From Rhodobacteraceae bacterium bin131 (GTDB lineage Bacteria; Pseudomonadota; Alphaproteobacteria; Rhodobacterales; Rhodobacteraceae), in assembly GCA_002239085.1 (NCBI GenBank), contig MPNP01000002.1:41379-105378 (forward strand): a stretch of 64,000 nucleotides of DNA, read 5' to 3'. Numbering within the stretch: position 1 is the stretch's first letter; each line of letters starts with the position of its first letter. The notes beneath the pieces were generated by a model. That model saw nothing but the letters and a program-made list of their open reading frames with translations. It did not search any database and had not been told where the DNA came from. Shown piece by piece: positions 5,802 to 14,800 of this stretch. Made by a program: the position numbers and the translations under genes.

Positions 5802-6242
5802 ATGCCAAGTTATCAAAAAAAAAGGCGCATACAGCTTATTGGCATTGCCGCCATATTGGTAATTTTCGCATCTGTTTTAATTGGTTATGGCTTCAGAGAA
5901 GGAATTTCTTTTTTCCGAACTCCTTCAGAAATCATAATGAATAATCCGGATCCACGAGAAGTTTTCAGAGTGGGTGGTTTAGTTGCGGAAGATTCAATTG
6001 AAAGTGTTGGTTCAATGGTTACCTTTCGAATCAAAGATGCCGATAGTTCTATCTCCGTACAATATACAGGAATATTGCCCGATCTATTTGCCGAAAATCA
6101 AGGTGCAATTGCATTGGGAACTTTTGATGGGGAAACCTTCCAAGCCACTGAGGTATTAGCACGGCATGACGAAAAGTATATTCCCAAGGAAGTCGTTGAT
6201 GCCTTAAAAGAAAAGGGTATTTATCAACCAGTTAATGAATAG
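5802..6242 (+). CDS. ccmE: Cytochrome c maturation protein CcmE
   Basis: Sequence and position before ccmF; C-terminal LARHDEKYIPKEV haem-binding motif. Confidence 0.95.
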   Translation: MPSYQKKRRIQLIGIAAILVIFASVLIGYGFREGISFFRTPSEIIMNNPDPREVFRVGGLVAEDSIESVGSMVTFRIKDADSSISVQYTGILPDLFAENQGAIALGTFDGETFQATEVLARHDEKYIPKEVVDALKEKGIYQPVNE

Positions 6243-10016: not shown

Positions 10017-11102
10017 ATGATGATTACAAATAGATTTCAATCCTTGATTAATGGGTCGTTAACGCCTGTTCTAGTTGTTACTGGTCTTCTTCTGTCAGCA
10101 TGTGGGGGGGGGGGTAATACAACGAACACTGCACCAACGAATATTGCAGTCGTTAACGAAATAACCGAAAAAACAACACAAGCTACAAAAGCTGCTGCTG
10201 TAGCAGAACCTATATATGGTAGCGTCGTACAAATAGCGGGAGAGTCTCCAACTTCTAGCGCTGAAGTAACTCGCTCTGCAACTGGAGAATACCTAATTAA
10301 ATTGCCATCTACAATTAGTACTGGCATTTCTATAAATTCAAGTGAAGATTTGTATTATACTGGTGCGACTGGCAGGATACTTAATAATAAGATAATTAAC
10401 TCTAGTGCACTATATAAAGAAAATGGTGAAGAAGCGACTCTTGTAGGATTTTATGAAGGTGATTTTGATTCTCTTGGAAATTGGGTCGCTGGCGGTTACT
10501 GGTTACATGGTGCTAATTTATCAAGCGAGCAACCTTCATTTGAAGCAGGGGCTTTTATAGATGGTCCAGAAATTAGTGGTGATCCTGTTCTGCCAACTGG
10601 AGGCTCGGCTAATTATAGTGGAAGCTCAGCTGGATTATATTCAGCTATAATAGGATCAGAATCAGCGACTGTACAAGCTGGGACAAAAGTTCTTGGTGAG
10701 TATGGGGGGACGTTTGAGTCCACTGCAAATTTTCGCAGTGGAGGTGGAACTTTATCAGGAGTGGTTACTGTTACAGACAGCGAAGAATATATAATTTATA
10801 ATAATTCTATAGATATTAATCGCAATGGATTAGTTGGGATTAAACTCAGTTGGGACAATGTAACCTTTACTTCTAACGGTCAGGCAACTGGTGATGTAAC
10901 TGTTTCATTACCAGCTTCATTTTCCCAATTAACTTTGATTGAAAACAGCGGGAAAACTGGAAATAGATTTTCTAAGGAAACAGTTTCTGACAGCAACCTC
11001 AATCCGCGATTGTTAGTAGGCACTCACGGCGCTCATGTAAGGTCTGATGGAGGCACCGAAGCAGCAATGATAGGAGTGCATATCGGTTCTACCGGTAACT
11101 GA
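10017..11102 (+). CDS. Secreted lipoprotein A, tentatively TbpB/factor-H-binding-protein-like beta-barrel surface lipoprotein; in frame through an 11-G tract
   Basis: Signal peptide plus lipobox LLLSAC; CGGGG linker; GYWLHG...GAFIDG...LPTGGSANYSGSSAGLY pattern resembles TbpB-like domains. Confidence 0.75.
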   Translation: MMITNRFQSLINGSLTPVLVVTGLLLSACGGGGNTTNTAPTNIAVVNEITEKTTQATKAAAVAEPIYGSVVQIAGESPTSSAEVTRSATGEYLIKLPSTISTGISINSSEDLYYTGATGRILNNKIINSSALYKENGEEATLVGFYEGDFDSLGNWVAGGYWLHGANLSSEQPSFEAGAFIDGPEISGDPVLPTGGSANYSGSSAGLYSAIIGSESATVQAGTKVLGEYGGTFESTANFRSGGGTLSGVVTVTDSEEYIIYNNSIDINRNGLVGIKLSWDNVTFTSNGQATGDVTVSLPASFSQLTLIENSGKTGNRFSKETVSDSNLNPRLLVGTHGAHVRSDGGTEAAMIGVHIGSTGN

Positions 11103-11605: not shown

Positions 11606-12256
11606 TACTATCCGACCTCGCTATAATGACGCTAAGTGAGTTCGCTACCCATGAAAATCCAGACCATGTCTTCTGACTTTTGGAGATCCTGAAGGAGTTA
11701 CAAGACCGTGACTTTTACCTGTTGGAGATTGACCCAGACAATTATTTACCATGTAATTGGCAGGTTAACCTCAAAAAATTCTGTCCTCAGATCCTGTAAT
11801 TACAAGGGAATCACGTCAAAAATCAAAATGAAGTTCTGCTATTAATTTCGGAAGCCAAAATTTTTTTGTTCAGGAAAGGTTTATTTCTGACCCCAGCTTT
11901 ATTTGTACGATGACGTTAAAAACATGTACAGCCATTCTAGCTATATTTTCAGCTCACATAATTGCGGGCTTTTTATCGTCTCGAGTACTAATTGATTACC
12001 AACGCTTTTCCATTGCTATTCATCCGCTTGTGCACCCATTTTTGGATATCTGAGTTTATCTCAAAATTAGTCAGTTCAGCCACTTAATTTAAACCAAATT
12101 AGAAGAGACCTAGGCGGTCGTGTATCTTAAATTGTACCATACAGTCATAACAATTAATCACTTCAATTCTCAGCGAAAATAATATTGACTCCGCTAATAG
12201 AATGAGCTAAAATGGAAACCAAGAGTTGTTAAGAGGAAATAAAAGGAGATAGTAAA

Positions 12257-13359
12257 GTGATGGTTGCAAATAGATTCCACACCTCGCACAATGGATCGCT
12301 AACACCCTTTTTATTTGTTGCTACCGGTCTTCTTCTGTCGGCATGTGGGGGGGGGGGTCAAGTAATGGAAATAATCCAGCGAACAATGCACCAACAAACG
12401 TTGCAGTTGTTACCGAAATTTCTGAACAAACAACTCAAGCTTCAAAAGCAGCCGCTCTAGCAGAACCTATATATGGTAGCGTCGTACAGATAGCGGGAGA
12501 ATCTCCAACTTCTAGCGCCGAAGTAACTCGCTCTTCAACTGGAGAATACCTAATCAAATTGCCATCTACAATTAGTACTGGCATTTCCATAAATTCAACT
12601 CAAGATTATTTAATTTCTGGTCCGACATACAGGCTTCTTAATGATGTGATAGTCAACTCTAGTGGACTTTATAAAGAAAATGGTGAAGAAGCGACTCTTG
12701 TAGGATTTTATGAAGGTGATTTTGATTCTCTTGGAAATTGGGTCGCTGGCGGTTACTGGATACATGCTACTAATTTATCAAGTGATCAACCTCCATTTGA
12801 AGTTGGGGCTTTTATAGATGGACCAGAAATTAGTGGTGACCCTGTACTACCAACAGGCGGTTCGGCTGATTATAGGGGAAGCGCCGCTGGATTATATTCG
12901 GCTACTATAGGTTCAGATTTAACGAATGCACAAGAAGGGACAAACGTTCTTGGTGAGTATTCGGGTACCTTTGAGTCCACTGCAAATTTTCGTAGTGGAG
13001 GTGGAACTTTATCAGGAGTGGTTACTGTTACAGTCAGTGAAGAAACTTATATTTATAATAATTCTATAGACATTAATCGCAATGGATTAGTTGGGATTAA
13101 ACTCAGTTGGGACAATGTAACCTTTACTTCTAACGGTCAGGCAACTGGTGATGTAACTGTTTCATTACCAGCTTCATTTTCCCCATTAACTTTGATTGAA
13201 AACAGCGGGAAAACTGGAAATAGATTTTCTAAGGAAACAGTTTCTGACAGCAACCTCAATCCGCGATTGTTAGTAGGCACTCACGGCGCTCATGTAAGGT
13301 CTGATGGAGGCACCGAAGCAGCAATGATAGGAGTGCATATCGGTTCTACCGGTAACTGA
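12257..13359 (+). pseudogene. Secreted lipoprotein B, paralogue of 10017-11102; out of frame at an 11-G tract (phase OFF, pseudogene or sequencing error)
   Basis: ORF 12257-12460 carries signal peptide and lipobox then leaves frame after the G-tract; ORF 12343-13359 carries the rest. 12 or 9 G would give ...LLLSACGGGGSSNGNNPANNAPTN... Confidence 0.8.
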
Positions 13360-13393
13360 GTATTAAATTAATTATTCTAGCTTTGACTTTTCG

Positions 13394-13412
13394 GATGGGG
13401 TCACTCCCCATC
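13394..13412 (+). terminator. Conserved hairpin downstream of lipoprotein B
   Basis: Same sequence as 11137-11155. Confidence 0.4.
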
Positions 13413-13821: not shown

Positions 13822-14800
13822 AAAAAATCACATCACTTCAAGGTGTTGAGATACCAGAATTTAATCTCTCTTAAAATGACGACATTGAATTCATTTAGCA
13901 AAACTCACTCTTAATGCTTTGATTATACACTCAATAGTCGTTACTGTACACAACATTTAACTCGGATGGCTGAGATAAATGTCAAAAACTAGAGAAGGTA
14001 AAAAATACACTTCTTTCCTGACAATGTGCCGCGGTTATCTGATTTCCAAAACCGATTGATTCCGTTTATATCCGACGCAACAATCTTATACTTGGCCGTT
14101 CTTTACAAGTCCAATCAATGTTGACTCCATAACCCTTGTATGAACCCAAATCACTTACTTCCTCTTCTATCACTGGAACGCTCCAGATATGATACAAAAT
14201 TGTGTTTTCGCAACAATTTACAAATAACGTGTCTTCTTGATGGGAGAGCCATAATAACAAAACCAATTCAAACCCCTATGATACTATGACCAGAACACTG
14301 CAAAAATCATCCCTTCGTCGTATTGTTGAATAACCTAAAAATCTACGCAACTCGGCAAAACACTTTGGGAAAAGAATATTTCAACGCAGTTGCTGACCAC
14401 TGTATCCCAATCTGTATCGGGGATGATTGTTAGATTATTCCTGTTTTTTATAACTGATAATCAGGAATCATCTTGCCATGTTTCTCGTTCATCATTAGCG
14501 AGAGTCGGTCAGAACACACCCGATTGTTGACAGACAATATCTATTATGCCCGAGTGCTCAACAAACGGCAAGTGGTCGTATAGGTTGGTTGGATAAGTGT
14601 CAAGAGAATTGGCAGGTTGATTTCACAAAATTCTGTCCTCAGATCCTGTAATTACAAGAGTATCACGTCTTAAATAAAAATGAAGTTCTGTAATTAATTT
14701 CGGCAGCAAATATCTGATTTCTTGGAAATTTTAATCTTAAGGAAAGGTTTATCAATTATCACAGTTATATTTACACGATGATTTTAATCTGGAAGCACTC

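Follow-up and report, generated by a model that had tools for sequence, protein, structure and literature searches.

The DNA stretch analysed here (the window, 64,000 nucleotides) belongs to a draft genome, G000, of 3.74 Mb in 416 contigs, with 98.4% completeness and 5.7% contamination. On its forward strand lies the gene of lipoprotein B, which is divided between two reading frames. A Shine-Dalgarno-like AGGAGA (12244-12249), read from the sequence and aligned to the upstream region of the sister gene A, precedes two possible starts, GTG at 12257 and ATG at 12260, and both lead to the same TAG codon at 12458-12460. This start frame (12257-12460, 67 aa) encodes a signal peptide that by inspection ends in the lipobox cysteine (MVANRFHTSHNGSLTPFLFVATGLLLSAC), followed by a short out-of-frame tail. 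Directly behind the cysteine codon (TGT, 12344-12346) of the lipobox LLLSAC is a run of exactly 11 G (12347-12357), the proposed switch. The +2 frame stays open for the remainder of the protein (12343-13359), which amounts to 338 aa as a mechanical ORF and ~335 aa of mature protein. Just behind the tract, the sequence reads SSNGNNPANNAPTN in the downstream frame and QVMEIIQRTMHQQ in the start frame; the former is a typical lipoprotein linker and makes sense from the first codon onward. Both halves of the ORF are intact and the frame is set by the G11 tract. The initial annotation had reported the lipobox with its 11 G, the closure after 67 aa and the open +2 frame without internal stops, and all three were confirmed at these positions.

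The tandem sister gene, lipoprotein A (10017-11102, forward strand, 361 aa), is intact and ON. Both proteins are lipoproteins as judged by the signal peptide, and the downstream part of B, previously estimated to be at least ~80% identical to A, was measured at 84-87%. A also carries a G11 tract behind its lipobox (10104-10114), which had been overlooked, and it is in frame despite having the same length as that of B, so tract length by itself does not separate the two genes. Immediately behind the tract A and B differ by a net 14 nt, which means that their ON tract lengths differ by one modulo three. In principle this 14-nt indel beside the tract, and not tract length, could account for the different frames of A and B. 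From the shared motif APTN onward the genes align without gaps over 972 nt, the signal-peptide part contains a single gap of 3 nt, and the flanks contain gaps of 1, 3, 6 and 11 nt. The tract junction is the sole frame-breaking difference between A and B in the coding region.

The downstream frame of B bears the marks of a coding sequence. Over the diverged 675 nt, corresponding to the 5' two thirds, A and B show 24, 19 and 42 differences at codon positions 1, 2 and 3, with a Ks of 0.25 and a Ka/Ks of 0.42. The two other frames of B are stop-rich and the downstream coding frame has no stops. Taken together, the gap-free alignment, the Ka/Ks ratio and the third-position bias indicate that B is constrained as coding sequence and has not decayed, and the earlier argument against an old pseudogene is thereby upheld. 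A young pseudogene, in which a duplicate was lost by one frameshift and stayed clean through its youth or through gene conversion from A, is a separate matter. Conversion does occur at this locus, since Ks falls to 0.014 in the 3' third; the final ~300 nt of coding sequence and the untranslated tail of 53 nt, which closes with an inverted repeat at 13394-13412, are nearly identical in the two genes (13069-13412 in B, 2 differences from A). This near-identity points to recent gene conversion or homogenisation, and it weakens the conservation argument for those ~300 coding nt only. An intact A could also make B redundant. Against this, the diverged 5' two thirds carry neither a stop nor a frameshift next to flanks with several indels, and the break lies exactly at the type of homopolymer that interrupts many other genes in this genome. 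We regard recent loss of B as quite unlikely.

A third copy of the lipoprotein C-terminus, 65% identical, is found at a contig end (L240, G000:C289:8-280), where the N-terminus and any tract are missing. Similar sequence was also noted by eye at window positions 11755-11960, 5' of B, and 14600-14800, past an HTH-like ORF 3' of B, and is probably the remnant of a further duplication of the region.

Runs of G of this length are in excess both locally and across the genome. The window contains 8 overlapping matches to at least 8 G, which make up 2 tracts, against 0.9 matches expected, and 0 of 100 shuffles reached 8. G000 as a whole has 45 tracts of at least 10 G compared to ~2 expected, and only 3 tracts of at least 10 A compared to ~134 expected, both expectations being derived from the window's own statistics (first-order for G). 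The claim that a G11 run is improbable by chance thus stands, but the DNA, which had been called AT-rich, has only a moderate AT excess (window GC of 40%). Tract lengths peak at 10 G (20 of 45) and 11 G (17 of 45). A tract of 25 G on contig C189 was treated cautiously.

The frame state was scored in the 29 genes for which the coding strand, the upstream part and the downstream frame were settled; L075 was left out. An ON call for L042/L057 was rejected because the signal peptide lies in another frame. Eleven of the 29 genes are ON and 18 are OFF, and the ON share (38%) is indistinguishable from random framing with one third ON (p = 0.69). This share bears on the possibility of a sequencing or assembly error, by which the true B tract would be in frame and the gene simply ON in most cells. 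The assembly is a draft in 416 contigs, errors are frequent in homopolymers, and tracts of this sort make even PCR slip (PMC3786947). With about one in three genes ON, however, errors would need to affect most of the tracts; moreover, A is in frame at the same tract length, and an off-by-one length in B would still leave the tract and its likely hypermutability. An error as the cause of the broken frame in B is accordingly an improbable though not negligible explanation.

Many of the tracts in G000 lie in genes for DNA modification or for surface structures, the kinds of function in which contingency loci are typically found. Restriction-modification (RM) genes with tracts include type I M and S, type III Mod, type IIG-like and type ISP genes, and further tracts occur in two EcoRI-type methyltransferases, one MTase-HNH protein and SspA. 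Tracts are also present in glycosyltransferases (one GT10-like), an FkbM-like enzyme, an autotransporter-like family and lipoproteins, among them two besides A and B with G10 within the signal peptide. Two 92%-identical copies, either paralogues or strain-like copies, differ in tract length (G10 in L038, G13 in L066). L066 is OFF and has an additional A insertion outside the tract that also shifts the frame, and it was consequently set aside as proof of a tract-caused frameshift. Copies in some other families have one common length (G10/G10, G11/G11).

Long homopolymers can slip in transcription, and constitutive low-level decoding, by RNA polymerase slippage or ribosomal frameshifting, would yield some full-length B at any tract length with no heritable switch. 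The conserved downstream frame of B is compatible with this. By itself, however, decoding leaves unexplained both the clustering of tracts in surface and RM genes and the length difference between L038 and L066, and as the full account of the tract it has very little probability. Decoding at poly-G could coexist with phase variation.

Some of the other tract-bearing genes deserve description in their own right. The SspA cysteine desulfurase is split by a G10 tract and is OFF (L241, G000:C254, 5624-6794, tract at 6037), and genes for SspB, SspC, SspD and SspF follow 3' of it, making the locus a candidate phase-variable DNA phosphorothioation system. Six autotransporter-like genes (L041, L045, L048, L060, L073 and L051), two ON and four OFF, have C10-C12 tracts that separate a conserved N-terminal segment (M..LFQLRAKAS.KQR) from the hydrophobic signal. 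MutS of G000 is intact. The mutL gene (L264, G000:C285:16833-17399) runs off a contig end, and a search of the rest of the G000 assembly for a MutL C-terminal domain found none. On this evidence, a mismatch-repair defect that raises slippage is no more than a possibility.

Kinship tables place eight genomes in the same genus as G000, each with 2 to 28 tracts of at least 10 G. Some poly-G tracts of G004 were rejected as assembly artefacts because they adjoin N runs. Tracts were also compared across relatives, as had been proposed. The genus-mate G005 shows the same design in two lipoproteins, which have poly-G just past the lipobox and are both OFF. Distant relatives of lipoprotein A, found in G004 and in other members of the family, share the lipobox cysteine at the same position and have no long homopolymer behind it. 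Orthologous type ISP genes of G000 and G003 (L050, L106) have a tract at the corresponding site and are both OFF. Two homologous genes, L094 of G003 (G10, ON) and L101 of G007 (C13, OFF), have tracts of a different base at the same site, which suggests that tracts have arisen there more than once. In G002, a family of secreted proteins (L197, L200, L201 and L208) carries poly-C where the signal peptide begins (e.g. MKRLLIT-PPP), and the frames differ between members. A ccmF tree puts G000 next to Rhodobacteraceae-type families at the end of a long branch, with 55% as the best identity to a named genome, and the source is probably an uncultured alphaproteobacterium related to Rhodobacterales.

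The protein family of A and B is less well defined than their tracts. A scan of named public genomes with A found no relatives, and A matched no Pfam domain, including TbpB_B_D (PF01298), no PDB entry by sequence (solved TbpB, HpuA and FHbp structures included), and neither HpuA nor TbpB at significant sequence similarity. Three distant relatives of A match PF01298 weakly, at 13.9-15.2 bits, below the cut-off of 26. A single-sequence AlphaFold model (pLDDT 31) was unusable. The precedent of HpuA invoked in the initial annotation holds as a comparison of mechanism, and HpuA/TbpB membership is not claimed for A and B. HpuA is a substrate of Slam (PMC7857515), and G000 encodes a Slam-family translocator (PF04575, G000:C281:1430-2293, 66.5 bits, cut-off 22). 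No Slam or TonB-receptor partner was found among the neighbours tested in the window, which are ccmF, ccmH, an enoyl-CoA hydratase, an M20 peptidase and a DNA ligase. Two lipoprotein genes flank a Slam gene in G005; together with the Slam homologue in G000, this makes surface display of A and B plausible.

The reading that best fits these observations, to which we assign a probability of about 0.82, is that B belongs to the simple-sequence contingency genes and was sequenced while in its OFF phase. The intact and constrained frame, the genome-wide tract pattern, the ON share near one third and the same design in a sister species all favour what had been put forward from the window alone, a candidate phase-variable lipoprotein in the OFF state. 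Slipped-strand mispairing during replication would reversibly add Gs to the tract next to the lipidated cysteine or take them away. One of the three phases would join the ~335-aa mature domain to the signal peptide in a single frame, so that the lipoprotein is made; the other two would give only the ~30-residue signal peptide and a short nonsense tail. A would switch independently of B through its own G11, and the pair could then take up four expression states, with two related proteins that diverge in the middle and have a homogenised C-terminus in common. The selective benefit may be escape from phages, predators or host recognition. Considered with the ~45 G-runs of G000, many of them in surface or DNA-modification genes, B looks like one switch of a large random on/off system, and G000 would hold dozens of such poly-G/poly-C contingency loci.

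Comparable systems are known from other bacteria. Poly-G tracts mediate phase switching of hpuA and hmbR in Neisseria, where, as in B, the tract lies inside the ORF of an outer-membrane lipoprotein or receptor and expression is frame-dependent (PMC3786947). Unlike hpuA and hmbR, the genes described here are alphaproteobacterial, had no TonB-receptor partner found next to them and no significant HpuA/TbpB match, and form two tandem copies with independent tracts directly behind the lipobox cysteine. In Campylobacter, tracts of at least 8 G mediate phase switching, and the phasome defined with PhasomeIt resembles that of G000 in its genome-wide poly-G/C tracts (peak at 9-10, compared to 10-11 in G000) and in an ON share near neutral drift in a draft-genome set (PMC6321876). 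G000 differs in its larger genome, its dozen interrupted RM genes, its unrelated class and its many coding-strand poly-C tracts, which make up 5% of ORF tracts in Campylobacter (PMC6321876). Homopolymer frameshifts also turn genes off in Bordetella pertussis (PMC1891110) and in Listeria inlA (PMC2831843), the latter, as in B, with the break close to the 5' end, in a gene for a surface protein. Those genes are different ones, and inlA uses poly-A, whereas poly-A tracts are depleted in G000. Phase-variable RM systems and phasevarions (PMC4889913, PMC9577141) are matched by the tracts in type I, III, IIG-like, ISP and EcoRI-type methyltransferase genes; this likeness concerns those other loci of G000 and not lipoprotein B.

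The mechanism class is thus known, and B is a new member of it. Slippage-driven phase variation has been described mostly in small-genome, host-adapted pathogens, and large on/off systems come mainly from Campylobacter and Neisseria. The unusual aspects here are the lineage, the scale and the candidate phase-variable SspA. No report of slippage phase variation for this order was found in the open-access literature searched, and neither Alphaproteobacteria nor marine occurs as a word in a recent review of phase variation (PMC11868660). We consider it somewhat more likely than not that this alphaproteobacterium, probably related to Rhodobacterales, has one of the larger poly-G/C phasomes known. 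It would comprise ~30 or more genes, among them roughly twelve for DNA methyltransferases or restriction enzymes of types I, II, III and ISP, and an Ssp system whose sspA is switched by G10. The main value of B would then be as an entry point to an unusually large alphaproteobacterial phasome. If this is true, a bacterium outside the recognised vertebrate pathogens would randomise its defence, epigenome and surface at the same time. Dozens of poly-G/C tracts in a genome of this lineage, with a lipoprotein pair and a phosphorothioation gene that is a candidate for phase variation among the genes concerned, suggest that bacteria use stochastic bet-hedging more widely as a protection from phages or other enemies.
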